This document shows positions 48,664 to 64,000 of a stretch of DNA of 64,000 bases, one piece after another. Numbering within the stretch: position 1 is the stretch's first letter; every line of letters begins with the position of its first letter. The stretch covers positions 1-64,000 of the forward strand of contig JBFMDH010000007.1 in assembly GCA_040754075.1 (NCBI GenBank), in the 5' to 3' direction. Below the pieces are notes generated by a model. That model saw only the letters and a list, made by a program, of their open reading frames with translations. It did no database searches and was not told the origin of the DNA. A program made the translations under genes and the position numbers. Origin of the DNA: Acidobacteriota bacterium. Lineage in GTDB: Bacteria > Acidobacteriota > Blastocatellia > UBA7656.

Positions 48664-51600
48664 CTATTTCGGTTCGCCCTGCAAAACAAAAGCTGCCCAG
48701 TAATAGGGTGATGACCAGCGTTTATCTTTTGCCATCGAGGCTCTCACCGCTTTCAACGCCGCTGCCGCGCTCATCCCCTCTTTGAGCATCGCTCGATAAA
48801 ACCGTCCCATAAATTCTGCGGTCGCCTCATCGCTTACATCCCATAAACTCACCAGCACCCGCGCCGCGCCCGCATACATAAACCCGCGCGTCAGTCCCAC
48901 CAATCCCTCGCCGCGTATTTCTTTGCCCAGTCCCGTTCGACATCCTGAGAGCACCACCAATTCCGCAGGCAATTTCAAATTGTAAATCTCATGCGCCCGC
49001 AAAAAGCCGTTTACCTCATTGCCGCCCTCATCGACCATCGACAACACAATGCCTGAGAGTTCCGGGTGCGCGGTGTTTAAAAAACCGTGAGTGGCAAAGT
49101 GAATGATGCGGTAATCGCTCAACTCGCGGCTGGTTGCCGTCTCACGATTCGCCGCGAAATCAATCGCCGCTTTCCGTTGGGTTGAGGCAACCAGAGATGC
49201 GACAACCATCGCCTCTTTGCGTGTAAAAGGAATGCGCGGCAATGACAAACCTTCATTGCTCATCTCAACATCAGCCATCGCGCGGGTCATTTCGTTATCG
49301 AGGACTGCCGGTTTATGGCTTTTTTCTTTTAGCGAATTTTCCTCTGCTAGAGTAATGCCGCGAGATTGCGCAACCATGTTTGATAACCCTTTGCGATTCG
49401 CCTGGGCTGATTTCAATCGCTCATCAGCTTTATCGAAAACCGGGTCGGCAAATATGGCGATAGTCTTTGCCGCAGGTTTTCGGTCTTTCAATTCTCGCCG
49501 CATCACTGCAAGCGTAGAAATCGACGGGAGGCTCACGATTTCATTGGTGATGCCTAAATACCCAACCGTTGGTTTATGGTTGGGATTTCTGCTTTCCGGT
49601 TTCGCTACGGGTAACGCGGCAAACGGAATATATTGCAACGCGCCATCGCCAACGACCAGCAGCTTTTTGTTTTGAATTTGTGAGGCGACGGGCGCAAGGA
49701 TCATCCGGGAAAGCCCATTCGCAGCCTGTGCATATTCGGATTCGGCTTTGGCGATTCGCGCTTTACGTTCATCAACGGTTTCAAATTTCACTACTTTGTT
49801 TCGCGCCGCGAGCAAATCATAAACCTGCTTGGCTGCCGAATCGATTTCGGAACGCTTTGGCAAGTTAAAGACTTTGAGCACATTTGACGAAACCGCGAAC
49901 AGATAACTGCGGTCTTTGCCAAGCGAATATTCCAGCAACAAGGTATCATCATCAATCAATTGTTGTCGGATTTCATCAAGTGTCAGTGGTTGAGTCTTGG
50001 TTATCGCCGCATAACGCGGGCTGAGGCTTTGCAACTTCGCCTGAAATTCATCGGTTTGAATTTTTGCCAATTCATAATCTTTTCGCGCTTTTTCCAACTG
50101 TTCACCGGTGTGTTTGGCGTTCAGCACTTTTTGCAGTTGTTGACTCGCCTGATATAAACGCGATTGTAAATCCTTATCTTTTTCGAGCATTCCGGCATCC
50201 AAACCGGCTCGTAAATCGATTCGCGAACGCGCCAACGTATCGAGCAAGGTTCGGGCGCGTCCCCTTTCAACAAATTGAAACGCCAATGCGTCATAACCTT
50301 TGGTCGCATCCCGTTGATGCAATTGCATGAGTAAATCAACTTTTAAATCATAAAAATCTTTCAAGGATGCAAGAAATAATGTTCGTGCCGAATCAATCTC
50401 AATCTTGCTTCTAATGGATTCGATTCGCGCGATGGCTTTATCTACATTGGTCTGCGCCGCCTCAATATTTCCCGATTCGTTTTGAATACGGGCAATAGCA
50501 AACAGTCCAATCGCTTCATCCAGTGGATTGGCGGTTGCCATAACGATGGGCAAGGCTTGGTTGTAAAACTCAAGCGCCTTCGCCGTATTGCCCGCTGCAT
50601 AATTGATGGTTCCAAGATAACGCAGGATTCGCCCTTCCCCGACCCGATCACCTAAAGACCGTTTGATGGTAAGCGCCTGCTCACATTGCTCTATGGCTTT
50701 TTGCCGGTCGCCGAGCATGTGATAAGTGAGTCCGATCATTCCTTGTGTAGTGCTGGCATACCAGGGGTTTTTATTTTGTTGATATAAATCGTAAGCCTGT
50801 TGAAAAAAGTCCAGCGCCTTTTCATATTCGCCAAGTTGATAATGCGAAACCCCGATGCTGTTAAACACAGTGGATAGCTGACGAGTGTCCTTTTCCTCTT
50901 TTAAAATTGTCAGGGCTTGATGGTGAAAGACCAACGCCTTATCAAAATCCCGCATATTTTCATAGGTTCCGCCAATATTATTGAGCGCGAAGGCTTCCGA
51001 TAATCGACTTTTTCTGAGGCGAAAGATTTCCAGGGTTTCATTGAATCCTTCGAGCGCCTTAAACGGTTCGCCGACGCTTTTATAGATTGCCGAAAGGTTA
51101 TTGATGGTCTGCACAACCCCCGCATCATTTATTTCACGCCGTATTTTCAAAGCCTGCTGGCAATAGTCGATGGCATTGTCCTGGTCGCCTAATAGATTGT
51201 AATTGGCGCAGAGGTTATTGAGCGCCACGCCTTCATTTTGTCGGCTGCCGAGTTGTCTCGAAAACTCCAGGTATTTAAAGTTGTATTCCAGCGCTTTTCG
51301 ATGGTCGCCGGTGATAAAGAAATGCTCTTGCAAACGGTAATTGGCTTGCGATTCGAGTCTGCGGTCGCCGGATTTTTGACTGAGTTCAAGCGCCTTTTGA
51401 TAATAGACGAGGGCTTTTTCGGTTTCTAAAATCGCCCGGTGCAATGTTCCCAAATCAAGGTTGGCAATGGTTTCACCATACAGATCACCGACCGTCTGGA
51501 ATAAGCCGATAGCTTCTTCATATTTGGGGATGCCTTTTTTCCTGACCTCATTATTATTGGTCTGTAATAAATTAATGGCTTCACCCATGACAATGCCGGC

Positions 51601-52101
51601 TTTGACTCTCGTCTTATCCTGCTCAGTTGCGGCGCGTAAATCCTGAACCGCCAGTTTATATTTTCCTGATTTATTCTCCTGTCGCCATGATCTCACTTCG
51701 ACGAAATATTCGCCCGATTGCGGAGCAAGCAGAAAGCCTTCATCGGTTGCCAGGTTGGGCGCATAGCCTCGACTGTAACCAATCTCTTTATTATCGCCAG
51801 TAAAAAATGTCATCTTTAAGTTGAGTTGGTTTTCATAAAGAAAAACCCGCAAGAATTGCCCTGCCGCAAGGGTTACCGAATAGCGATGGATTTCACTATC
51901 TTTTTTGTCGCGCTCTACGGGTTGGGTGAGCGAAAGCGGTTGCACATCAATCGCTTCAGCTTTTTTCTGTGCCTGAGTTTGCGCCGGTAAACTGGATTGC
52001 CCCGACCACAGAAGCCAGACAACGCTTAAAAACAAACCGATTGTTTTTCGCTTATTGACGGTGAAGGGGCGAAGAAAAATTTCAACAGCTAAATTTGCCA
52101 C
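48664..52101 (-). CDS. Exported TPR-CHAT domain protein
   Basis: The 1145-residue protein has a signal-peptide-like segment (about 15-42, ending LPAQTQA), a PPC-like beta domain (about 60-150), a TPR array (about 180-560) with repeats of the form AIDYCQQALKIRREINDA, a helical linker, and a C-terminal CHAT protease-like domain (about 790-1145). The catalytic pair is H1005 in FATHGF and C1054 in SGCRTG. CHAT proteins are caspase-like peptidases. The signal suggests action outside the cytoplasm, unlike the defence-type CHAT proteases. TPRs should bind the substrate or partner. The neighbouring convergent gene is a membrane protein of unknown function. Confidence 0.9.
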   Translation of the reverse strand: MANLAVEIFLRPFTVNKRKTIGLFLSVVWLLWSGQSSLPAQTQAQKKAEAIDVQPLSLTQPVERDKKDSEIHRYSVTLAAGQFLRVFLYENQLNLKMTFFTGDNKEIGYSRGYAPNLATDEGFLLAPQSGEYFVEVRSWRQENKSGKYKLAVQDLRAATEQDKTRVKAGIVMGEAINLLQTNNNEVRKKGIPKYEEAIGLFQTVGDLYGETIANLDLGTLHRAILETEKALVYYQKALELSQKSGDRRLESQANYRLQEHFFITGDHRKALEYNFKYLEFSRQLGSRQNEGVALNNLCANYNLLGDQDNAIDYCQQALKIRREINDAGVVQTINNLSAIYKSVGEPFKALEGFNETLEIFRLRKSRLSEAFALNNIGGTYENMRDFDKALVFHHQALTILKEEKDTRQLSTVFNSIGVSHYQLGEYEKALDFFQQAYDLYQQNKNPWYASTTQGMIGLTYHMLGDRQKAIEQCEQALTIKRSLGDRVGEGRILRYLGTINYAAGNTAKALEFYNQALPIVMATANPLDEAIGLFAIARIQNESGNIEAAQTNVDKAIARIESIRSKIEIDSARTLFLASLKDFYDLKVDLLMQLHQRDATKGYDALAFQFVERGRARTLLDTLARSRIDLRAGLDAGMLEKDKDLQSRLYQASQQLQKVLNAKHTGEQLEKARKDYELAKIQTDEFQAKLQSLSPRYAAITKTQPLTLDEIRQQLIDDDTLLLEYSLGKDRSYLFAVSSNVLKVFNLPKRSEIDSAAKQVYDLLAARNKVVKFETVDERKARIAKAESEYAQAANGLSRMILAPVASQIQNKKLLVVGDGALQYIPFAALPVAKPESRNPNHKPTVGYLGITNEIVSLPSISTLAVMRRELKDRKPAAKTIAIFADPVFDKADERLKSAQANRKGLSNMVAQSRGITLAEENSLKEKSHKPAVLDNEMTRAMADVEMSNEGLSLPRIPFTRKEAMVVASLVASTQRKAAIDFAANRETATSRELSDYRIIHFATHGFLNTAHPELSGIVLSMVDEGGNEVNGFLRAHEIYNLKLPAELVVLSGCRTGLGKEIRGEGLVGLTRGFMYAGAARVLVSLWDVSDEATAEFMGRFYRAMLKEGMSAAAALKAVRASMAKDKRWSSPYYWAAFVLQGEPK

Positions 52102-52345
52102 TGATGCGACCTCCGACGAAAATTATTGCCGGTTGCAGATAACGTTGGGTTGGATTAAGTGCCTAAGAATAATTGCCCAAGTGGGAGTAATACTATCACC
52201 ATTTTTTTTTGCCGCTCAAGTCAATAGCATCGGGTTGGGATTTATTTATTTTTTGGTGTAATCTTTCAATTTAGATGGCACACGATGTGTAAAAACCACC
52301 GCAATCAATTATCTCTAAACAGCAAAAGGATTGTTATCCGAACCT

Positions 52346-52876
52346 ATGTCTGAATTGAAAAAACAGAAAGCGCATTTGCAATTCCACTTGAACGGCGAAC
52401 CGGTGGAGGTCGCTTTTGCTCCCCATAAAACGTTGCTCGAAGTCTTGCGCGAAGATTTAAATCTGACCGGCACCAAACATGGTTGCGAACTCGGCGAATG
52501 CGGCGCTTGCACCGTGTTAATCGACGGGCGGGCGGTGCTCTCTTGTCTGGTACTGGGTCTGGATTGTGAAGACAAAGAAATCCTCACCATCGAAGGCATG
52601 AGCGCCAACAATCAACTTCATCCGTTGCAGGAGATGTTTGCCGATTTAGGCGCAGCGCAATGCGGCTATTGCTCTCCCGGTTTTTTACTCGTTGCCAAAG
52701 AACTTCTCGAAAAAAATCTTCACCCGACGCGGGATGAAATCAAAGATGCTTTATCGGGCAATATCTGTCGTTGCACCGGGTACATTAAAATTTACGAAGC
52801 CGTTGAACTTGCCGCCGCCCGCATGCGCGGCGAAGCGGTCACGATTCCACAAGAGGTTGTTTACGGACTGGAATAA
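52346..52876 (+). CDS. [2Fe-2S] subunit of a xanthine-oxidase-family molybdenum enzyme
   Basis: The ATG at 52346 gives 176 residues. The plant-type ferredoxin domain has C47, C52, C55 and C67 (CELGECGAC...C), and the second domain has C106, C109, C141 and C143 (CGYC...CRC). Both clusters carry electrons between the molybdenum and flavin sites. The gene opens a set of subunits that, together with the FAD gene at 56731, resembles 4-hydroxybenzoyl-CoA reductase (HcrC role). The protein has no signal peptide and so is cytoplasmic. Confidence 0.9.
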   Translation: MSELKKQKAHLQFHLNGEPVEVAFAPHKTLLEVLREDLNLTGTKHGCELGECGACTVLIDGRAVLSCLVLGLDCEDKEILTIEGMSANNQLHPLQEMFADLGAAQCGYCSPGFLLVAKELLEKNLHPTRDEIKDALSGNICRCTGYIKIYEAVELAAARMRGEAVTIPQEVVYGLE

Positions 52877-52885
52877 ACGAGGTGG

Positions 52886-53212
52886 ATGATGAGTGTACGC
52901 CTGCCTGTCTATCAATCGGCAATTACCTACCCTGAAAGCGACGGCAAACCGACGGCAGAAACCGATTACCTGAGTGAGCCATTGATTGCCTATCGGCTTG
53001 AAGATGGAAAATTTGTTGAGGTCGAAATCATCAATGGTCGCTTAAGAAGCAATGCACCAGGCTTGGATATTGTTGACACTGGAAAAACTTTGCGCTTGGT
53101 CAACCCCAAGACGAAAAAGTTTTTACTGACCCCTGATGAAGCGATGGAAGCCGTTCAATCTCAACAAGCCAAATCGACAGGAAAAAAATCAACGAAATCG
53201 CCAAAGAAATAA
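52886..53212 (+). CDS. Small protein resembling the C-terminal part of Uma2-type proteins
   Basis: The 108-residue protein has LSEPLIAYRLEDGKFVEVE, NGRLRSNAPGLDI and LRLVNPKTKKFLLTPDEA, which match the beta-strand tail that follows the nuclease domain of many Uma2 (PD-(D/E)XK) proteins. The catalytic part is absent. The start follows GAGG by a few bases. It lies between subunit genes of a molybdenum enzyme with 9-bp and 54-bp gaps, so it is translated from the same transcript. It might be a domain recruited from an Uma2 gene. Confidence 0.65.
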   Translation: MMSVRLPVYQSAITYPESDGKPTAETDYLSEPLIAYRLEDGKFVEVEIINGRLRSNAPGLDIVDTGKTLRLVNPKTKKFLLTPDEAMEAVQSQQAKSTGKKSTKSPKK

Positions 53213-53266
53213 CTTGAATCATTCTGATATAGTCGGAAGGAAAACCAACCGACCGAAAAAACAATT

Positions 53267-55699
53267 ATGAAGAACGGAAGAAACGGAAATCTAAAAGTTG
53301 TCGGCAAACCCTATCGCAAAGTGGATGCGCGAATGAAATGCACAGGGCAAACCAAATTCGCGGATGACGTCGCGTTGCCGCGCATGCTTTACGCGAAACT
53401 TTTGCGCAGTCACATTCCCCACGCGCTCATCAAACATATAGATGTTTCTAAAGCTCTTGCGCTTCCGGGGGTTGTGGCAATCCTAACCGGCAAAGATTTG
53501 CCTATTCCTTACGGCATTCTGCCCGTCAGTCAGGATGAACACACGCTTTGCATAAACAAAGTCCGTTTCATCGGCGACCCGGTTGCCGCGATTGCCGCGA
53601 TTGACGAGGACACGGCGTTTGAGGCGATGGATTTAATCGAAGTTGAATATGAACGTTTGCAACCCATCGCCTCCATCGAAGACGCGCTCAACATCAATGA
53701 GCCGCGCATTCACGAATACGGCGACCACGGTAATACTCATAAAAAAGTGTCGCTTGAATTCGGCAACCTGGATGAAGGTTTTGCCGAAGCCGACCACATA
53801 CGCGAAGACATTTTCTTTTACGAAGGCAACACCCATCTGCCGATTGAACAACACGCCTCGCTTGCCAATTTTGACCCGGACGGGAAACTGACGCTCTGGA
53901 GTTCAACGCAAACGCCGCATTATGTCCACCGCGCGCTCGCCAAAGTTTTAGAGATGCCCGCCGCGCACATTCGCGTCATTGCCACACCGAACGGCGGCGG
54001 CTTCGGCGGCAAAAGCGACCCGTTCAATCACGAAGTCGCGGTGTGCAAACTTTCGATGATAACCGGTCGTCCTGTGAAAATTACTCTCACCCGCGAAGAG
54101 GTTTTCTATTGTCATCGCGGGCGTCATCCGGTTTTGATGTGGGCGAAGACCGGCGTCAAAAAAGACGGATCGATTACCGCCATGCACTTTCGCAATTTCC
54201 TGGATGGCGGCGCGTATGGCAGTTATGGTGTAGCTTCAACCTTTTATACCGGCGCATTGCAAACCGTGACCTACGAAGTACCGCGTTATAAATTTGAAGG
54301 CACCAGAGTTTTCACCAACAAACCGCCTTGCGGTCCGAAACGTGGACACGGCACGCCGCAACCGCGATTTGCGCTTGAAGTTCAACTCGATAAAATCGCG
54401 AGTGACCTGGGACTCGACCCGGCAGAGATGCGCCGCCAGCATCTCGCCCCGGCAAACTCGATTACCGCAAACTGGCTGCGCATCGGTTCGATGGGGCTTG
54501 GCGCGTGCATTGATAAAATCGTTGATGCGAGTGATTGGAAAAACAAGTTCCGCAAACTTCCTTACGGTAAAGGCATCGGTATCGCTTGCAGTTCGTACCT
54601 GTGCGGCGCGGGCTTGCCGATTTACTGGAACAACCTGCCGCATTCGGGTGTGCAACTTCGCCTGGACAGACAAGGCGGCGTTTGTGTGATGTGCGGGTCA
54701 ACCGACATCGGGCAAGGTTCGGATTCGGTTCTCGCTTACATAGTCGCAGAAGTCTTAGGCATTGAACCGTTCGACATTCGCATCGTGACCGCCGACACCG
54801 ATTTAACCCCGGTTGATTTGGGCAGCTATTCAAGCCGCGTGACCTTGATGACCGGCAACGCCGCTGTGCAAGCCGCCGAACGCGCCCGTGAAATTTTAGC
54901 TAAAGCGGTTGCCGAAAAACTCGATGTGCCGGTTGAAGATTTATCATTTGCAGAACATCGGGTTTTCGATGTGCGAAACCCTGAACACGGCGTGAGTTTT
55001 GCTGAAGCCGTGGTTTTAGCAGAATCAAAATTCGGCACCGTGGGAACCGTCGGTTCATACACGCCGCCGCGTTCGCCCGGCAAGTTCAAAGGCGCGGGAG
55101 TGGGACCTTCGCCGGCATACAGCTATTCAGCAGCGATTGCCGAAGTTGAGGTTGATGCCGAGACTGGTATCACAACGGTTGAACGCATTTGGATTGGTCA
55201 TGACATCGGGCGTTCGCTCAATCCTGCGCTGGTGATGGGGCAGGTTGAAGGCGGCGTTTACATGGGACTCGGTGAAGTCTTGATGGAAGAGATGGTCTAT
55301 CGCGCGAGTCGCAACATCGTGCATAAATTCCCGTCGATGCTCGAATACAAAAGTCCGACGACGATGGAGATGTGCGAGGTCAAAACGTTTTTAATTGAAG
55401 ACCCAGACCCCAACGGGCCATTTGGCGCAAAAGAGGTCGGGCAAGGACCGCTGCTGCCGGTGATGCCTGCGGTGGTGAATGCAATTTATGATGCAGTGGG
55501 CGTTTATGTTGATGAAATCCCCGCGACCCCTGAAAAAGTGTTGGCGGCGCTCAAGGCAAAAGCCCAAGGCAAGGAAGGGCGCTTTGGACCCAAAGCGGTT
55601 CCGACAGTTGACTGGGGCAATCCCTTAAAAGTTTTAACTCCGCTTGAGGGCGGCGACGGCAAAGAAATGCCCAACGCCGCAGTGCATTTGAGAGAGTGA
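53267..55699 (+). CDS. Molybdopterin-binding large subunit, xanthine-oxidase family (HcrA-like)
   Basis: The 810-residue protein has an N-terminal a/b-hammerhead domain (about 15-125) with GKPYRKVDARMKCTG and ALPGVVAILTGKDLP, followed by the large molybdopterin-binding domains with GGGFGGKSDP, RGHGTPQPRFALEVQLD, SSRVTLMTGNA and the catalytic Glu723 in GAKEVGQGP. Its usual place is the alpha subunit of aldehyde, xanthine or 4-hydroxybenzoyl-CoA converting enzymes. The partner FAD subunit (56731-57720) carries a reductase-type iron-sulfur insert, which favours a low-potential dehydroxylation. The substrate cannot be read from the sequence. A C-terminal extension of about 45 residues follows the conserved domain. 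Confidence 0.88.
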   Translation: MKNGRNGNLKVVGKPYRKVDARMKCTGQTKFADDVALPRMLYAKLLRSHIPHALIKHIDVSKALALPGVVAILTGKDLPIPYGILPVSQDEHTLCINKVRFIGDPVAAIAAIDEDTAFEAMDLIEVEYERLQPIASIEDALNINEPRIHEYGDHGNTHKKVSLEFGNLDEGFAEADHIREDIFFYEGNTHLPIEQHASLANFDPDGKLTLWSSTQTPHYVHRALAKVLEMPAAHIRVIATPNGGGFGGKSDPFNHEVAVCKLSMITGRPVKITLTREEVFYCHRGRHPVLMWAKTGVKKDGSITAMHFRNFLDGGAYGSYGVASTFYTGALQTVTYEVPRYKFEGTRVFTNKPPCGPKRGHGTPQPRFALEVQLDKIASDLGLDPAEMRRQHLAPANSITANWLRIGSMGLGACIDKIVDASDWKNKFRKLPYGKGIGIACSSYLCGAGLPIYWNNLPHSGVQLRLDRQGGVCVMCGSTDIGQGSDSVLAYIVAEVLGIEPFDIRIVTADTDLTPVDLGSYSSRVTLMTGNAAVQAAERAREILAKAVAEKLDVPVEDLSFAEHRVFDVRNPEHGVSFAEAVVLAESKFGTVGTVGSYTPPRSPGKFKGAGVGPSPAYSYSAAIAEVEVDAETGITTVERIWIGHDIGRSLNPALVMGQVEGGVYMGLGEVLMEEMVYRASRNIVHKFPSMLEYKSPTTMEMCEVKTFLIEDPDPNGPFGAKEVGQGPLLPVMPAVVNAIYDAVGVYVDEIPATPEKVLAALKAKAQGKEGRFGPKAVPTVDWGNPLKVLTPLEGGDGKEMPNAAVHLRE

Positions 55700-55704
55700 A
55701 CGCT

Positions 55705-56091
55705 ATGGGAAAGTCGAGAAAGATCGTTGTTGATGGCATGACTTATATGTGGCGATTTGCGCCAGGCTATGAAAAGACGGGTGAGGCTGCCAATCGCTAT
55801 CGCTGTCACGACATCTTCACAGCCTATATACACGAATACCGGCACAGCCCCCTGCAAGCGCATTTCATCACCTGGGAAGACCCAGTGATCGGCGGACCTC
55901 TGCATATGGGAGCGCCGATTAATCTTTATGATTCAACTTCGCCGCGCATCAACCTGCATGAGCCGAAAAACGCGGCGAAGATGATTCGACTGGCATTACA
56001 ACTTGGCTGGCAACCGGCAAACGGTAAGAAACCTTTTGTGATCGAAAACGGGCAAGACATCTTAGCGGAATTGTGGAATAAGGCGGAATAG
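55705..56091 (+). CDS. Conserved-looking protein of unknown function in the molybdenum-enzyme operon
   Basis: The ATG at 55705, six bases after the previous stop, gives 128 residues. It contains VVDGMTYMWRFAPGYE, FITWEDPVIGGPLH and a C-terminal LALQLGWQPANGKKPFVI segment. The GWxP motif near the end recurs in small orphan proteins of unknown role. No catalytic motif is evident. Being between the enzyme subunits suggests a cotranscribed passenger. Confidence 0.6.
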   Translation: MGKSRKIVVDGMTYMWRFAPGYEKTGEAANRYRCHDIFTAYIHEYRHSPLQAHFITWEDPVIGGPLHMGAPINLYDSTSPRINLHEPKNAAKMIRLALQLGWQPANGKKPFVIENGQDILAELWNKAE

Positions 56092-56101
56092 AGGAAAAGT
56101 C

Positions 56102-56680
56102 ATGGCATCGAATCCCAAAAAACTATTTACTCCTGAAGAATATTTAGAGTCGGAACGTCAATCCGAATATAAGAGCGAATATTTAGATGGTGAGATATTC
56201 GCCATGGCAGGAGCCAGTGAGGCGCATATTCTGATTGAAGCAAATGTGATTGCTGAGTTTAACGTCCAATTCCAAAAGAAACCCTGCCAGGTTTATACGG
56301 GCAATATGAAAATAGACCTCAGCAAGCACGGTATGTATGCTTACCCTGATGCCGTTGTGGTGTGTGGCGATCCCATTTATAGCGATAAGTACAAAGATAA
56401 TTTGCTCAACCCATTGCTTATCGTGGAAATTCTTTCACCTTCAACTGAAGCCTATGATCGAGGGGAAAAGTTTTTCCGTTATCGAAAGCTGGAAACTTTC
56501 AAAGAGTATTTATTGATTTCACAACATACTCCGCATATTGATCACTATTTTAAACAGGAAACTAACAAATGGATATTATCCGAAAGCGACGGGTTGCAAG
56601 ACACTCTTAAGTTACCCACACTTGAAATCACACTCAGTCTTTCTCGAATATACGAAAAGGTAAAATTCGATCAGGCTTGA
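56102..56680 (+). CDS. Uma2-family putative endonuclease (PD-(D/E)XK)
   Basis: The 192-residue protein has YLDGEIFAMAGASEAH, YPDAVVVCGDP, LLIVEILSPST and AYDRGEKFFRYR, which carry the acidic and lysine residues typical of Uma2-family nuclease-like folds. The family is common in bacteria as multicopy genes; its function is not established. It lies 10 bp after the 128-residue gene and 50 bp before the FAD subunit. Its place inside a metabolic operon is unusual. Confidence 0.82.
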   Translation: MASNPKKLFTPEEYLESERQSEYKSEYLDGEIFAMAGASEAHILIEANVIAEFNVQFQKKPCQVYTGNMKIDLSKHGMYAYPDAVVVCGDPIYSDKYKDNLLNPLLIVEILSPSTEAYDRGEKFFRYRKLETFKEYLLISQHTPHIDHYFKQETNKWILSESDGLQDTLKLPTLEITLSLSRIYEKVKFDQA

Positions 56681-56730
56681 AAAATAGAGAATGGAAAAGG
56701 TAGTAACCCAATCAAGAGAAATAAATCCTT

Positions 56731-57720
56731 ATGATGAGACTTCCGAAATTTGACTACCGCGTCCCCAAAACCATTGAAGACGCGGTAAAAATAAAAGCCG
56801 CTTGCGGTAGTGATGCGATGTTCGTTGCAGGCGGCACTGACCTTTACCCGAACATGAAGCGGCGACAACAAACGCCCAAGACGGTAATTTCCGTGATGCG
56901 CCTCGCTGAATTGCATTCCATCAAAGGCGACGGCGAATCGGGCTTAACCATTGGCGCGGGCATTTTGCTCAGTGAGATTTGTGCAAGTTCACTAATCAAT
57001 CAGTCACACAAAGTGGTTGCCGATGCGGCGCGCACCATTTCAACGCCGTTGCTTCGCAATATGGGAACGATTGGCGGCAATCTGCTTTTAGATACGCGCT
57101 GCAATTATTACGACCAGAATTATGAATGGCGTAAAGGCATCAACTTCTGTATGAAAAAAGACGGCGATACCTGTTGGGTCGCGCCCGGCAGTTCGACGTG
57201 CTGGGCGGTGCAATCTTCGGACTTAGTCCCGGTGATGGTGGCGCTCGGCGCGCGTTTGAAATTCGTTTCAAGCGCAGGCGAAAGAGTGGTTGAAGCCCGT
57301 GAACTTTATAACAATGACGGCATCAATTACCTGCACAAACAAGCGAATGAATTGCTTACGGAAATTTATATTCCGCCGATGAAAAATAAACATGCAGTTT
57401 ATAAAAAACTCAGACGACGCGGGGCATTCGATTTTCCGGTGTTAGGAGTTGCCGCCGCCGTCGAAGTCGCGAGTGATGCCACGATTGCAGCGGCGCATAT
57501 CGTTTTGGGCGGTGTCGCTCCTGCACCGGTTGAAGTCAAAGATGCTGAAGCCGTTTTAATCGGACAGGCATTTACTGAAGAAACTATCGAAGCCGCAGCC
57601 GAGGCTTGTTATCTGAAAGCCCGACCTCTGGATAACACGGATTTTGTGATGGGCTGGCGTAAACAGATGGCGCGACCGTTTGCGCGACGCGCGCTGGTTG
57701 AATTGCAATCGGCGTTATAA
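56731..57720 (+). CDS. FAD-binding subunit with [4Fe-4S] insert, 4-hydroxybenzoyl-CoA reductase beta-like
   Basis: The 329-residue protein has the FAD-binding motifs VAGGTDLYPNMK and TIGGNLLL. Between residues 121 and 162 it has an insertion with C124, C140, C148 and C157 (C-x15-C-x7-C-x8-C). An insert of this kind, holding a [4Fe-4S] cluster, is known from the HcrB subunit of 4-hydroxybenzoyl-CoA reductase, and I recall the same spacing there. The C-terminal CO-dehydrogenase flavoprotein domain follows (VYKKLRRRGAFDFPVLGVA). The insert is not found in ordinary xanthine dehydrogenase flavin subunits. The enzyme probably reduces an aromatic thioester, but the substrate is unproven. Confidence 0.85.
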   Translation: MMRLPKFDYRVPKTIEDAVKIKAACGSDAMFVAGGTDLYPNMKRRQQTPKTVISVMRLAELHSIKGDGESGLTIGAGILLSEICASSLINQSHKVVADAARTISTPLLRNMGTIGGNLLLDTRCNYYDQNYEWRKGINFCMKKDGDTCWVAPGSSTCWAVQSSDLVPVMVALGARLKFVSSAGERVVEARELYNNDGINYLHKQANELLTEIYIPPMKNKHAVYKKLRRRGAFDFPVLGVAAAVEVASDATIAAAHIVLGGVAPAPVEVKDAEAVLIGQAFTEETIEAAAEACYLKARPLDNTDFVMGWRKQMARPFARRALVELQSAL

Positions 57721-57758
57721 ACATTCGGTTCGCGGCATTCAACTGCGAAAGGATTATT

Positions 57759-57857
57759 GTGGTCGTTTTATTTTTACTATTTATCGCCGTAGTTTTCGGA
57801 TTAGCCATCGCCGGGTTTGTGACCTGGGCAATTCTCAGCGAGCGAAAGAAGAATTGA
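57759..57857 (+). CDS. Possible small single-pass membrane protein
   Basis: A GTG at 57759, with GAAAGGA before it, gives 32 residues: a hydrophobic helix (MVVLFLLFIAVVFGLAIAGF) and a basic end (SERKKN). It lies 38 bp after the FAD subunit gene and may be its last co-transcribed gene. Short hydrophobic frames can arise by chance. Confidence 0.45.
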   Translation: MVVLFLLFIAVVFGLAIAGFVTWAILSERKKN

Positions 57858-57927
57858 GCAGCAGCGCAAATCTTTGTGCTACTGCTCACCATCAATTATA
57901 AATTTCACGCCTGTGTGATTTCCTCAA

Positions 57928-60591
57928 CTATTGAACAATCAGAGTCAGAGTAGCGGTTCGCGTCCTACCGGAATCGTCTCTGGCTTGAAAGGTTAATAGG
58001 TGTTGGCCAAGCGCCGCGCTGCCTTTCACCTTTAATTTGAAATTTACCCGGCTTTCCGTTGTCGAAACCGAATCACCAACTAAAACGATACCTCTGGGCA
58101 GAGGGGTCGCGGCAGTGATGGTGACGTTGCCAGTGAAACCGCCCGTGCGGTTGATGTCGGCAGCGATTTTGACCTTGCCGAATGAAGTGGTGACGGTCGG
58201 CTGGCTAAACGACAGCGAGAAATCCGGTCCTGTGGGAATGGTAACGGGCGAATACTTGACCAGAAAGGCATCGTTGCTCCCTTTGAGTTCGCGTTGAAAC
58301 GCGCCTGTGGTTGTCGGGAAGGTCGAACCATCAGTGACGATACCAGAGACGAAGATGTTGCCTTGCGGGTCAACGGCGATGCCTTGCGGGAGGGTAACGC
58401 CGTCGCCGCCTAGATAAGTCGCAAACAGCACATCGTAAGTATCGGGGGCAAAGACGACGACAAAGCCGTTTTCGTTTACACCGCCAGGCGTGGACTGGGT
58501 CGGGCTGACGGTCGGCAGGTCGGTTGAGTTAGTATCGCCTGTGATATAAATAGCCCCGCGTGAATCTTTTGCCGAGGCGGATGTAAATTCGTCACGGCTG
58601 CCACCAAATATGCCTTTCGCGCTACCATTGCCGTTTTGATCAACGGGCGCAACGACAACGTCGTATCCGCCGCCGGTGGCTTGAGGCGCTACAGAAGAAG
58701 GGCTAACCAGACCGCTACCACCGGGAGGATATACGGCACTGCCCGTAAGTTGACCCATAAGTGGATCAGGGGGGGAGATTCTGTCGTATAATTCCTCTAG
58801 TATTTCTACACAGGTCGGCTCTCGCCCCAATCTGTCACGTAGTTTGTTTTGAATAGCTGCGATAGCTAAAGTCGGGTGTACGCGAACATCGGTGTAGCCG
58901 GAATCTCCAATAGAATAGGCTTGTAGTATGTTTTCCAGTTCGTCACAGCTTGGATCAGTTGCCTGCAGAGCAATGCCGCCTGTGGTTAGGTTTGTCGAGT
59001 CGCTTGCGCCGACAATCACTATCTGGTTTCCGTCGGATGAGACCGAAACCGAACTCGCTTCCTCGTCGCCATTCCCGCCAGAAAAAGTAGAGAACAACAG
59101 GCTCGTTCCGGTTGCCGAAACAACCGACAAAAACATATCGCGGTCGCCGCCGCCATAGTTTGCCTGCGTCGGATTGACCGTCGGAAAGGTCACGCTCGTG
59201 GCTCCACGCCCATCAATTGTGCCGATAAGGTAAGCATTATTCTGAGCGTCGAGCTTGAGGTCTTTGGCTTCATCAATTTGGTTACCGCCGAGAAAGCTCG
59301 AATAAATTATTCCTGTCCCGTCGCTAGTGAGTTTGGCAACGAAAGCATCAAGGCTGCCTCCCTGGGTTGATTGAAAAGCATTCCTGATAGGGAAATCGGA
59401 AGCGGCGGTTGCGCCCGCGATATAGATAGCGCCTGTCGCATCAAGGGCTATCGCATTGCCGCGACTGCCGCTGTCGTTGCCGCCGAAAAAGGTTGAGAAA
59501 ATCAGCGAACCATCCGGCGCAAACTTGCTGATGAACGCTTTGTTGCTGGAGTTATTGGCTTTCGTTCCGTCAATCGGATTGCGCGTCGGAAAATCGCTCG
59601 ATTGAGTTGTGCCAATAATGTAAGCGTTGCCCTCAGCGTCAACCGCCACATCGTATGCGCCATCGAAGTTGCCTGCCGCGCCGCCCAGCAATGTTGAATA
59701 CACAACCACCGGATCAATCACCAGAGGCTTGCTTTCATCGTATTCGCCGAGTTCAAAAGCAACCAGAGGATTTTGGATTTTGGATTTTGGATTTTGGATT
59801 GTTGAAGGCGGAGCTACAAGTTTGTACTGTCCGGCGATTTCCTGACGCTTGCCGTTGATCTCTTGATAGATGCGCGGCGCGTGTTGTCGCAACCGACCGA
59901 CGGCTGTATTTAATATTAAACCACCCGATGCATGATCTAATTCGACCCTATCGGCTCCTTCAACAGACATGGCGATCAGGCCAGGATTGGCTCCCACAGC
60001 CACTTTGAAGTCATATTCCAGTTCGCCTGCTTCGTTGCAGTAATAGATCAAATCAATGCCGGGATAGAGATTTTCATATTTGACCTTGGCGTACGCTTCG
60101 ACATTCGCGCGCCATTTTCGCGGGTCGTTGCCGATGAAATAATTGGACACGCCCGGCAATTTATCAATTCCGATAATACGCGGCTCGCGGTTGCTGTTGA
60201 TGGGACGCAACCCAATCACGGCGCTTTCAACCGGATGGATGATCTCCTCAGGCATCGCTTTACGCCTTGCATCTTTTGTTTCCGGGGTTTCCCTTAACTT
60301 TGGCAGACGCAGCACGGCTTCGCTTGCCGTCAGAAAGAGCGTGCTGTCTGAGGTTTTGGCGATGAAGCGCACCTCGGCGTCGGTCTGCCCGCGATTCGCC
60401 TCAAACCGCAACGGCATCTTCTTGAAAGCGATTCCTTGCGCTGTTGCGTCAACCGCCAGGCTCGGCATCGGCGAATCTGCGAAGGCAATCATTTGCGGAA
60501 CCTTTTCAAGGTTGGCAGGTAGGATGACGAAAATACTCAAGATGGACAATATCAACATCAAGCTAATCGGGCGACGTAGAGATTTTTTCAA
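57928..60591 (-). CDS. Exported SBBP-repeat beta-propeller protein
   Basis: The 887-residue protein has a signal peptide (1-38), a conserved N-terminal domain with RFEANRGQTDAEVRF and PGIDLIYYCNEAGELEYDF (about 60-260), SBBP-type propeller repeats of the form YSSFLGG...AVDxxGNAYIxGxT (about 300-560 and 660-790), an inserted helical segment (about 550-625) with CDELENILQAYSIGD, and a C-terminal Ig-like domain (about 800-887). A heptamer array lies at 59768-59801 and encodes QNPKSKI units. The protein should act at the cell surface. It lies 13 bp after a helix-turn-helix gene, so the two form an operon. Confidence 0.88.
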   Translation of the reverse strand: MKKSLRRPISLMLILSILSIFVILPANLEKVPQMIAFADSPMPSLAVDATAQGIAFKKMPLRFEANRGQTDAEVRFIAKTSDSTLFLTASEAVLRLPKLRETPETKDARRKAMPEEIIHPVESAVIGLRPINSNREPRIIGIDKLPGVSNYFIGNDPRKWRANVEAYAKVKYENLYPGIDLIYYCNEAGELEYDFKVAVGANPGLIAMSVEGADRVELDHASGGLILNTAVGRLRQHAPRIYQEINGKRQEIAGQYKLVAPPSTIQNPKSKIQNPLVAFELGEYDESKPLVIDPVVVYSTLLGGAAGNFDGAYDVAVDAEGNAYIIGTTQSSDFPTRNPIDGTKANNSSNKAFISKFAPDGSLIFSTFFGGNDSGSRGNAIALDATGAIYIAGATAASDFPIRNAFQSTQGGSLDAFVAKLTSDGTGIIYSSFLGGNQIDEAKDLKLDAQNNAYLIGTIDGRGATSVTFPTVNPTQANYGGGDRDMFLSVVSATGTSLLFSTFSGGNGDEEASSVSVSSDGNQIVIVGASDSTNLTTGGIALQATDPSCDELENILQAYSIGDSGYTDVRVHPTLAIAAIQNKLRDRLGREPTCVEILEELYDRISPPDPLMGQLTGSAVYPPGGSGLVSPSSVAPQATGGGYDVVVAPVDQNGNGSAKGIFGGSRDEFTSASAKDSRGAIYITGDTNSTDLPTVSPTQSTPGGVNENGFVVVFAPDTYDVLFATYLGGDGVTLPQGIAVDPQGNIFVSGIVTDGSTFPTTTGAFQRELKGSNDAFLVKYSPVTIPTGPDFSLSFSQPTVTTSFGKVKIAADINRTGGFTGNVTITAATPLPRGIVLVGDSVSTTESRVNFKLKVKGSAALGQHLLTFQARDDSGRTRTATLTLIVQ
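59768..59801. repeat. In-frame GGATTTT heptamer array inside the SBBP gene
   Basis: Four copies of GGATTTT plus a partial fifth run through the coding region and encode a QNPKSKI repeat on the minus strand. The unit shares the GGATT core of the arrays between pilB and pilT. A change of one unit (7 bp) would shift the frame. Confidence 0.85.
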
Positions 60592-60604
60592 GGGTCTGCT
60601 CCTT

Positions 60605-60934
60605 TCAACTTATCGAATAAATGTTTGGCGTCAGGTCATTTTTTTCTTCTGTCCGATGGAGGAAATCTTGATCGGCAGTTACCTCTGCATGAAGCGTACG
60701 AAATAGGGAGTGGCGACAAATACGTTGCCCGCCACCGGCAGTCTTTACCCCGTGCGCCTTGCCCGAAGCGAGCCAGCGATAAATACTTTTGGGCGTTACC
60801 TGCGTAAGGGCGCTGGCTTGCCGAGTGGTGAGAAATTCACTGCTCAGGCGACAGATCGGGCAGAGCATCTGCGCCGGTTTTTTGATGATTCGCTCGCGCT
60901 CGAAGGCAATAATTTCAACTCGTCTCTTAATCAT
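60605..60934 (-). CDS. Small helix-turn-helix (excisionase/MerR-like) protein
   Basis: The 109-residue protein contains FLTTRQASALTQVTPKSIYRWLASGKAHG (about 34-62), a helix-turn-helix of the excisionase or MerR-like type, and HSLFRTLHAE after it. A CPIC motif (25-28) is the only cysteine pair. The C-terminus is polar. The gene lies 13 bp before the SBBP gene and is divergent from the winged-helix/TPR gene, so it may control either. The phage-type excisionase role is unlikely because no integrase is near. Confidence 0.75.
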   Translation of the reverse strand: MIKRRVEIIAFERERIIKKPAQMLCPICRLSSEFLTTRQASALTQVTPKSIYRWLASGKAHGVKTAGGGQRICRHSLFRTLHAEVTADQDFLHRTEEKNDLTPNIYSIS

Positions 60935-60941
60935 TAGTGGT

Positions 60942-60969
60942 TTGCCTCAACCCCATGAATTGGTATAAT
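60942..60969 (+). promoter_or_regulatory. Candidate sigma-70 promoter of the winged-helix/TPR gene
   Basis: TTGCCT (60942-60947) and TATAAT (60964-60969) are 16 bases apart. The transcript would begin near 60976 and leave a leader of about 160 nt before the ATG at 61138. Confidence 0.5.
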
Positions 60970-61137
60970 CGGCCCATCTTTATTTGGCAGCACAGACTCC
61001 AGTTCGTTTAACTTTCTGAAATCTGCAAACTGAAGCCTGCGCCCCTTTAGACAATCCCGATTCTATGAAATCAAGAAGCGCGAATCTGGAAAAGAATCGG
61101 AAAATAAACGGAAAAAATAGGATTGCCGGAGGTTATT

Positions 61138-63102
61138 ATGGTTGTTCAGATAAATAAGGTTTATCTTCTGGACAAATACCGCCTTGAACCTGGCAAACGC
61201 CTGCTCTATTTGGACGATGCGCCGGTTCATCTGACCCCGCGCCCCTTTCAAGTCCTGGTTTACCTCATCGAAAACCGCGACCGCGTAGTGACCCGGCAAG
61301 AACTCTTTGATGAGTTCTGGGAGGGGCACGACGTTTACGATGACACCTTGAGAAAATGCGTCGGCGCGATTCGCAAAGCCTTGAAGGACAACGCCAATCA
61401 AGCGCGATTTATTGAGACGCATTATGCCGGCGGCTATCGTTACATTGGCGCGGTCGAAGAGGTCATCGAAGAAAGCTCGTCCGTCGTTGAAGTCGAAAAA
61501 ATGCATGGCGTGCGCCTGGTCATCGAAGAAGAGATTCACGATTCATTACCGCCGGAAGTCAATCAACAAACCGTGACGACATCGGCGACGCCCGTAAAGG
61601 AGCCAAGACTTTCACATCGCGCCGTCGCCTTCGTGAGTTTGATTGCGGTTATTGGTTTGCTGGCGCTGGCATTTTTGCGCTTCCGCAATTCTGGCAATGC
61701 CGAACCCGATACCCAGTCAACAGCGATTCGTTCCATAGCCGTTTTGCCATTGAAGAATCTCTCGAATGATGAAGCGCAGGAGTTTTTCAGCGATGGACTC
61801 ACCGAAACCTTTATCACAGAGTTGTCGAAGATTGACGGTTTGAAAGTTATCTCGCGCAATTCCGTATTCACCTTAAAAGGCAAGGATATTGACCCGCGAG
61901 AGGTTGGCAAACGACTGGATGTCGCAGCGATTTTGGAAGGCAGCGTTCGCAAAAATGGCGATACGGTTCGCGTTGATGTGCGTCTGGTGAATACACGGGA
62001 TGGCAGCGTCATCTGGTCGGGCAACAACTATGACCGCGCGTTGAACGATATACTCGCGGTTCAAGACGAAATCGCCTGTAGCGTGGTTGCCGGATTGCGC
62101 GTCAAATTTTGCAAAGATGCCGAGCCGTCGAAACACTACACCAGCAATGTTGATGCTTATCAAGCCTATTTGAAAGGGCGTTTTTATTGGAACAAGCGAA
62201 CCTCTGAAGGCATACGGCGAAGCGTCGACTATTACGAGCAGGCAATTGCCCTTGATCCGAATTATGCTTTGGCTTATGCGGGACTGGCGGATAGTTATAT
62301 TCAAGGCATTTGGCACGTACCTTTTGATCCCACAGAGGTGCTGCCGAAAGCGAAAACGGCTGCCTTGCGGGCAATCGAGATAGATGACCAGTTGGCGGAA
62401 ATTCATACGGCTCTCGCCAACGTTTATCAAATGGAATGGCAGTGGGCGGATGCGGAACGAGAGATAAACCGGGCGATTGCCCTCAATCCGGGACTTGCCA
62501 GAGCCTACCACGTTCAAGCCTTCCAGATGGATATGACCGGGCGACATGAAGAAGCCGTAGCGTCAATCAAACAGGCGCAAATACTTGACCCGTTGAATCT
62601 GGTTATCAATGCCGATATGTCGTTTATTCTTTGGAACGCAAGATATGCGGATGAAGCTTTGACGCAAGCCCTGAAAGTTGTAGAGATGGATCCGAACTTT
62701 GCTTTCGGGCATGAAAGGCTCTACGAACTTTACCTGTTTCAAGGCAAAGAAGAAGCGGCTGCCGAAGAATATTTCAAAACCCTGATGCTTGGCGGCAGGA
62801 GCGATGCGCAGGTCTTGGCTTACCGAAAAGCCTTTGAGAAAAGCGGCTGGAAGGGCATTGCTCAAAAGAGGTTGGATGAACGACTGCAAGATCAAAGGCA
62901 GGGCAAGTATAGTTCGCTAATTTTCATCGCGGGGTCCTATGCCGAGCTTGGTCAGCCGGAACTTGCATTCAACTATTTGGAGAAGGCTTACAATCAACGC
63001 AGCGCCGAAATGGGCATCGTCAAAAACTCGCCGTATTTCGCTCCCCTGCATTCCGATCCGCGCTATCAATCCCTGTTGCGGCGCATCGGATTTTCTGAAT
63101 GA
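61138..63102 (+). CDS. Winged-helix regulator with TolB/FlgO-like and TPR domains (CadC-type)
   Basis: The ATG at 61138 follows GGAGG and gives 654 residues. An OmpR-type winged-helix domain (about 1-105; TPRPFQVLVYLIENRDRVVTRQELFDEFW, GGYRYIG) is followed by a membrane helix (about 160-180), an FlgO/TolB-N-like domain (about 195-320; FSDGLTETFITELSKIDGLKVISR, EGSVRK) and TPR repeats (about 330-600). The DNA-binding part faces the cytoplasm and the rest the outside (inference). No receiver or kinase is present, so this is a one-component membrane regulator like CadC. Its target may be near but is not visible. It shares the intergenic region with the helix-turn-helix gene. Confidence 0.88.
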   Translation: MVVQINKVYLLDKYRLEPGKRLLYLDDAPVHLTPRPFQVLVYLIENRDRVVTRQELFDEFWEGHDVYDDTLRKCVGAIRKALKDNANQARFIETHYAGGYRYIGAVEEVIEESSSVVEVEKMHGVRLVIEEEIHDSLPPEVNQQTVTTSATPVKEPRLSHRAVAFVSLIAVIGLLALAFLRFRNSGNAEPDTQSTAIRSIAVLPLKNLSNDEAQEFFSDGLTETFITELSKIDGLKVISRNSVFTLKGKDIDPREVGKRLDVAAILEGSVRKNGDTVRVDVRLVNTRDGSVIWSGNNYDRALNDILAVQDEIACSVVAGLRVKFCKDAEPSKHYTSNVDAYQAYLKGRFYWNKRTSEGIRRSVDYYEQAIALDPNYALAYAGLADSYIQGIWHVPFDPTEVLPKAKTAALRAIEIDDQLAEIHTALANVYQMEWQWADAEREINRAIALNPGLARAYHVQAFQMDMTGRHEEAVASIKQAQILDPLNLVINADMSFILWNARYADEALTQALKVVEMDPNFAFGHERLYELYLFQGKEEAAAEEYFKTLMLGGRSDAQVLAYRKAFEKSGWKGIAQKRLDERLQDQRQGKYSSLIFIAGSYAELGQPELAFNYLEKAYNQRSAEMGIVKNSPYFAPLHSDPRYQSLLRRIGFSE

Positions 63103-63158
63103 GACAGGCAGCGCAGGATTTTCAACGCATAAAAGAAAAGGAAGTAATAGGAATTTGC

Positions 63159-63213
63159 AAAAAAGAGAAGGTGAAGATTCTTTCAATACTGCAATCTTCA
63201 CCTTCTCTTTTTT
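63159..63213. terminator. Strong bidirectional terminator
   Basis: AAAAAAGAGAAGGTGAAGATT (63159-63179) is the reverse complement of 63193-63213, a perfect 21-bp stem with a 13-nt loop and A/T runs on both sides. It separates two convergent genes. Confidence 0.9.
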
Positions 63214-63224
63214 CAGCAGAACAG

Positions 63225-64000
<776 letters not shown>

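Follow-up and report, generated by a model that had tools for sequence, protein, structure and literature searches.

The window, a stretch of 64,000 nucleotides of an Acidobacteriota bacterium (contig JBFMDH010000007.1), contains between 52331 and 57720 the genes for all three subunits of the 4-hydroxybenzoyl-CoA reductase (HCR) type: a molybdenum subunit, an FAD subunit and a subunit with two [2Fe-2S] clusters. The features are listed in Table 1. The eight ligand cysteines of the small subunit are found at positions 52, 57, 60 and 72 and at 111, 114, 146 and 148. This subunit scored 174 bits against TIGR03193 (cut-off 257.8) and its best NCBIfam model was that of a glyceraldehyde dehydrogenase subunit, also below the cut-off. 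The gene order small-large-FAD is conserved among the relatives, and all Fe-S ligands as well as the order are kept across phyla. Three further reading frames break up this order in the window, namely a Uma2 remnant, a 131-aa ORF and an intact Uma2 gene, and none of them is a conserved part. The remnant matched the Uma2 protein of locus L043 in two pieces with 52% and 58% identity, the 131-aa ORF showed no Pfam or NCBIfam match, and the intact gene is common to only one close relative (L038) at this position. Uma2 was inserted twice between the enzyme genes; in the relatives the same intergenic gaps hold other small genes, one of them resembling BrnT.

Table 1. Features of the three-subunit locus, with coordinates in the window.
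Feature	Coordinates	Strand	Basis
Small subunit, two [2Fe-2S] clusters, TTG start	52331..52876	+	Pfam Fer2 and Fer2_2; TIGR03193; Cys positions
108-aa ORF between small and large genes, Uma2 remnant with the middle missing, not part of the enzyme	52886..53212	+	blastp
Large molybdopterin subunit, HcrA-like, Q-type	53267..55699	+	best PDB match 1rm6_A; TIGR03194; tree
Gln726 codon, motif AKEVGQGPL	55442..55444	+	alignments with HcrA E726 and XO E1261
131-aa ORF between large and FAD genes, outside the conserved core	55696..56091	+	comparison with relatives
Intact Uma2-family gene separating the large and FAD genes, variable in the relatives	56102..56680	+	PF05685
FAD subunit with HcrB-type four-Cys insert	56731..57720	+	PF00941 and PF03450; TIGR03195; best PDB match 1rm6_B
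Codons of Cys124, 140, 148 and 157, predicted [4Fe-4S] ligands	57100..57201	+	alignment to 1rm6_B; invariance

The FAD subunit (329 aa) scored 252.4 bits against TIGR03195, which is below the equivalog threshold of 404.55. The preliminary description had reported an insert with four cysteines in this ORF and took it as a hallmark of HcrB. The ORF, its coordinates, the cysteines and their spacing of 15, 7 and 8 residues were confirmed. The insert lies after TIGGNLLLDTR, and in the phmmer alignment Cys124, Cys140, Cys148 and Cys157 correspond one-to-one to C122, C138, C146 and C155 of HcrB (1rm6_B). All four are invariant in 17 aligned FAD orthologs. Across 80 further loci the RC-x15-C-x7-C-x8-C spacing is exact in all 68 FAD matches covering the region, the other loci having truncated, missing or partly aligned FAD matches. 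Judging from the sequences, the pattern is not due to chance and the four cysteines are the predicted ligands of an extra [4Fe-4S] cluster; the AlphaFold2 model is uninformative on the cluster geometry (pLDDT below 50 across the insert). The positions thus match HcrB, but the insert is not specific to it. A paralogous FAD subunit at C8 of the same genome (L036 9680-10642) carries a four-Cys insert with a spacing of x8, x7 and x17, and the associated large subunit falls outside the HCR clade in our tree. As a version of the insert is also present in this more distantly related protein, the insert alone is not diagnostic and we rejected it as sole proof of an HCR.

For the large subunit the best solved match was HcrA (1rm6_A) with 618 bits, followed by CoxL with 289 bits. 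The score against TIGR03194 was 842.7 bits (cut-off 994.55), and the HCR model ranked first among the NCBIfam models for both the large and the FAD subunit, in both cases below the equivalog cut-off. A phylogeny had been proposed as a check of the assignment to HCR. In a maximum-likelihood tree of the large subunit, HcrA, its homologues with Glu at position 726 (Glu-type) and the clade with Gln at this position (Q-type), which includes the window enzyme, were joined with a support of 96/90. Support was 100/99 for the monophyly of the Q-type and 99/98 for L166 as its sister. The HcrA of Thauera lies inside the Glu-type group (99/97), and the Q-type forms a sister group to the HcrA-containing clade and is not placed within it. 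CoxL, quinoline oxidoreductase and the other XO-family proteins of the own genome fall outside the HCR clade, where some outgroup branches are long. Neither in the tree nor in the profile and PDB comparisons did the window large subunit cluster with xanthine, aldehyde or CO dehydrogenases. Q-type enzymes were found in Acidobacteriota, Gemmatimonadota, Planctomycetota and Eisenbacteria with ∼70% identity of the large subunit between phyla; among the class relatives its mean column identity is 81%. The AlphaFold2 model of the large subunit (mean pLDDT 49) is uninformative on the active-site geometry.

A further difference to HcrA concerns the active site. Where HcrA has the motif AKEASEG the window large subunit has AKEVGQG, and residue 726 is therefore a Gln instead of the family's catalytic Glu (HcrA E726, XO E1261). 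We observed Gln726 in 13 out of 13 class relatives, in 79 out of 79 readable loci from the four phyla and in every further Q-type locus for which the motif was read. The Glu is kept in all Glu-type relatives with a readable motif. In this family the Glu activates the Mo-oxo ligand and is essential for hydroxylation, and the same residue has been proposed as the proton donor for oxygen abstraction in XO (PMC10420851). About twenty other positions separate the Q-type from the Glu-type group, with clade-specific replacements that include Q195, C476, E670, P728 and L730. Glu670 is found where HcrA has Gln673. Since L166 has a Glu at the 670 position while it retains Glu726, the change to Glu670 may have preceded the change to Gln726. 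The earlier proposal of a reductive dehydroxylase of the HCR kind therefore stands in part: HcrA is the nearest solved relative, ahead of the aldehyde and CO dehydrogenases, but the enzyme belongs to a sister clade, scores below all three TIGR cut-offs and has Gln for Glu. On this basis it is most fittingly placed in the HCR lineage, in a Gln726 clade of its own, and a standard 4-hydroxybenzoyl-CoA reductase is not supported. We would not file it under that name because it deviates in two of the family features tested: the scores stay below the cut-offs and the catalytic Glu is missing.

No CoA ligase or ring reductase had been noticed in the window, and we saw no aromatic pathway gene in 50000-64000, the part that was read. 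The recommended search of the genome did detect such genes outside the window. Two proteins scored above the benzoate-CoA ligase family cut-off, BoxB reached 729 bits (cut-off 499) and BoxC 781 bits (cut-off 712), and a boxR-type regulator, boxB and boxC adjoin one another at C10. A CoA ligase and a pathway that consumes benzoyl-CoA hence occur in the same genome as the window enzyme. The outcome that had been named as refuting the preliminary description, a large subunit grouped with aldehyde or CO dehydrogenases in a genome devoid of aromatic pathway genes, was thus not observed. A second cluster at C28 (L135 10987-19083) contains an SDR gene, BcrC-, BcrB-, BcrA- and BcrD-like genes and an enoyl-CoA hydratase. 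The best models for its B and C subunits are the BCR families, with scores far below the equivalog cut-offs. This cluster, in a genome that also has boxBC, holds a hemerythrin-like gene and a gene of the tryptophanase/tyrosine phenol-lyase family as well.

Physical linkage of Q-type genes to boxBC was observed at one locus only. The locus is L081, from a Terriglobia MAG. Here the Q-type small subunit gene lies ∼40 bases downstream of boxC and boxB, and the genes of the large subunit, a PLP enzyme and the FAD subunit come next on the same strand; boxR is divergent from this operon. In L042 and L079 a boxR-type gene and a PaaK-like ligase adjoin the Q-type genes, and L177 has a PaaK-like ligase beside them. 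L123 has a TetR gene, a CoA ligase and beta-oxidation genes immediately upstream, along with a homologue of aromatic/histidine ammonia-lyases that scores below all cut-offs; this arrangement fits a delivery of aroyl-CoA. L176 shows ech-thiolase-ech upstream, and most other Q-type loci have no informative neighbours. The histidine ammonia-lyase near L047 and L120 was set aside as a pathway clue, as it is a true HutH. In L059, L067, L071 and other Pyrinomonadales loci the Q-type operon is immediately preceded by FolK, PanB and PanC and followed by MocA; a functional link to PanB, PanC and FolK was rejected, the arrangement looking like lineage synteny.

The nearest Glu-bearing relative, L166, adjoins the benzoyl-CoA pathway genes Had (475 bits, cut-off 338.65) and Dch (296.3 bits, cut-off 292.5). 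Other Glu-type operons (L163, L164, L165, L167 and L169) include an enoyl-CoA hydratase, a BoxB-like oxygenase of the PaaA family and usually an aldehyde dehydrogenase, and those of L163 and L169 also CoA-transferase subunits, a rhodanese and an amidohydrolase. The oxygenase is 35% identical to BoxB, and the copy in L169 scored 232 bits (cut-off 499). It is possible that these operons represent a second aerobic HCR-linked pathway.

We then compared the distribution of the genes across 297 Acidobacteriota genomes. Genomes were classed as Q-type for an FAD subunit identity of at least 43% (n = 44) and as Glu-type for 36-39% (n = 11), the Gln/Glu state being read directly in those genomes whose loci were fetched. 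BoxB was found above the cut-off in 49 genomes and a BCR-like subunit in 65. Q-type and BoxB occurred together in 26 genomes with 7.3 expected (OR 14.4, p 8e-13), and at the family level 15 were shared, out of 24 and 22 (OR 12, p 1e-5); these Fisher p-values are too small, as shared ancestry of the genomes is ignored beyond the family count. BoxB was absent in 18 of the 44 Q-type genomes. For the BCR-like genes we detected a weak excess (15 observed, 9.6 expected), and 29 of the 44 had no BCR-like match at 1e-30. Within the same genomes the Glu-type is not associated with BoxB (1/11) but it is associated with BCR-like genes (7/11, p 0.003). As a control we used an unrelated Mo-hydroxylase paralog, because PaaA was too rare (4/297) for a strong control. 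The paralog gave an OR of 4.6 with BoxB, which fell to 3.0 when one over-sampled family was left out, and the link between Q-type and BoxB persisted in both strata of the paralog (Mantel-Haenszel OR 14.9). Within the phylum the distribution of the Q-type follows the aerobic box genes more closely than those of the anaerobic ring reductase.

The picture differs outside the phylum. Among 39 Q-type genomes of Gemmatimonadota, Planctomycetota, Eisenbacteria and one unnamed bacterium, BoxB was detected in 3, PF06050 genes in 13 and neither in 25. Most of the Q-type Gemmatimonadota sampled have neither BoxB nor BCR-like genes. These carriers are MAGs of unreported completeness, though we judge the pattern too strong to result from MAG gaps alone. 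Therefore the box link explains the Acidobacteriota at best, and the enzyme of the Gemmatimonadota needs another account.

Our preferred reading, to which we assign a probability of roughly 0.45, is that the locus encodes a three-subunit XO-family enzyme of the HCR lineage and Q-type which performs a reductive dehydroxylation and feeds benzoyl-CoA to the aerobic box pathway. Electrons would enter at the FAD subunit, where the additional [4Fe-4S] cluster is predicted, and travel through the small subunit with its [2Fe-2S] pair to the molybdenum cofactor, which would reductively strip the ring hydroxyl from a thioester of the hydroxybenzoyl-CoA type. The benzoyl-CoA would pass to the BoxB/BoxC pathway and possibly also to the BCR-like operon at C28. 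Gln726 and the neighbouring residues would support reduction but not hydroxylation. The anatomy, the Fe-S ligand residues, the clade, the invariant Gln726, the association with BoxB and the L081 operon come directly from the comparisons above; the substrate, the direction of electron flow and this role of the residues are inferred. In favour of the reading, HcrA is the nearest solved relative, the cysteines match HcrB, L166 adjoins Had and Dch, the own genome has box genes and benzoate-CoA ligases, BoxB co-occurs, and the L081 operon and the contexts of L123 and L176 point in the same direction. The reading is weakened by the scores below the HCR cut-offs, the missing Glu, the Q-type genomes without BoxB in Acidobacteriota, the carriers without BoxB and PF06050 elsewhere and the single linked locus. 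On balance the Q-type enzyme probably acts on an aroyl-CoA and is tied to the aerobic benzoyl-CoA pathway.

It is also possible, and in our view only somewhat less likely, that the Q-type catalyses some other non-hydroxylating reaction (ring reduction, dehydrogenation or hydration) on an aryl-CoA, an alicyclic-CoA or another substrate, with the Gln marking a changed chemistry and the box link being one use of several. The invariance of the Gln in four phyla, the further clade-specific replacements and the 25 non-acidobacterial carriers are in line with this, and the identity of the large subunit between phyla suggests one specific old function. The box operon, the beta-oxidation contexts and the position next to HCR instead favour aroyl-CoA and reductive dehydroxylation. 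An ordinary HCR that tolerates the Gln and feeds the BCR-like operon in anoxic growth, as in Thauera, is unlikely: the C28 cluster and the weak excess of BCR-like genes agree with it, but the BCR-like subunits score far below the BCR equivalogs and most Q-type genomes have no such match, whereas most Glu-type genomes do. Very unlikely is one of the usual oxidative molybdenum hydroxylases, be it an aldehyde, xanthine or CO dehydrogenase, with a chance four-Cys insert; the C8 paralog does show such an insert beyond the HCR clade, but this reading was already disfavoured by the tree and by HcrA leading all other solved relatives by >300 bits, and the window enzyme lacks the Glu on which oxidative members rely (PMC10420851). 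A catalytically dead or decaying enzyme, as the lost Glu and the Uma2 insertions might suggest, is hardly credible given the column identity among class relatives and the fact that neither the Fe-S ligands nor the gene order change across phyla.

The invariant Gln and the company of the box pathway suggest that common soil bacteria possess a branch of aromatic breakdown which has yet to be characterised. In its widest form, which we give rather less than even odds, a widespread unnamed HCR branch without the catalytic Glu would remove ring hydroxyls from CoA thioesters in oxygen-using soil bacteria, so that phenolic acids enter the box pathway; in Gemmatimonadota the enzyme would serve another route. 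If this is true, the coupling of an HCR-like enzyme to the box pathway would give abundant soil phyla an additional route for phenolics of the lignin type and for those derived from tyrosine. A Gln that is invariant at the site of the catalytic Glu would also be a natural test of which XO-family reactions need the carboxylate, and would bear on the question of one-electron versus two-electron chemistry in HCR.

The reductive removal of hydroxyl groups from phenolic acids is known from anaerobes, and to our knowledge the known box pathways contain no XO-family enzyme. Here BoxB and BoxC are present in the own genome and statistically linked to the Q-type. In our paper searches, which were not literature-wide, HCR-like enzymes were described neither from Gemmatimonadota nor together with the box pathway, except for SAR324 bins reported to have both HCR and BoxB/BoxC annotations (PMC4782131). 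With HcrABC of Thauera aromatica (PDB 1rm6, 1sb3) the window enzyme shares the three subunits, the positions of the Cys insert and a joint large-subunit clade; it differs in the Gln for Glu726, the ∼20 clade-specific residues, the sub-cut-off scores and the linkage to boxBC in one host. The Glu-type HcrA homologues of Acidobacteriota (L053, L054, L163-L171) have the same anatomy with a four-Cys FAD subunit and are, together with HcrA, the nearest relatives. They differ in that the Glu is kept, in that L053 and L054 score above the TIGR03194 cut-off and in their linkage to dch/had (L166) or to the BoxB-like oxygenase (L163-L165, L167, L169). By its description Ucdh of Enterocloster bolteae is also alike: it belongs to the XO family, dehydroxylates a phenol reductively and has HCR as its closest characterised relative. 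It differs in using NADH and a free lactone substrate (urolithin C) and in coming from a gut anaerobe (PMC12771579).
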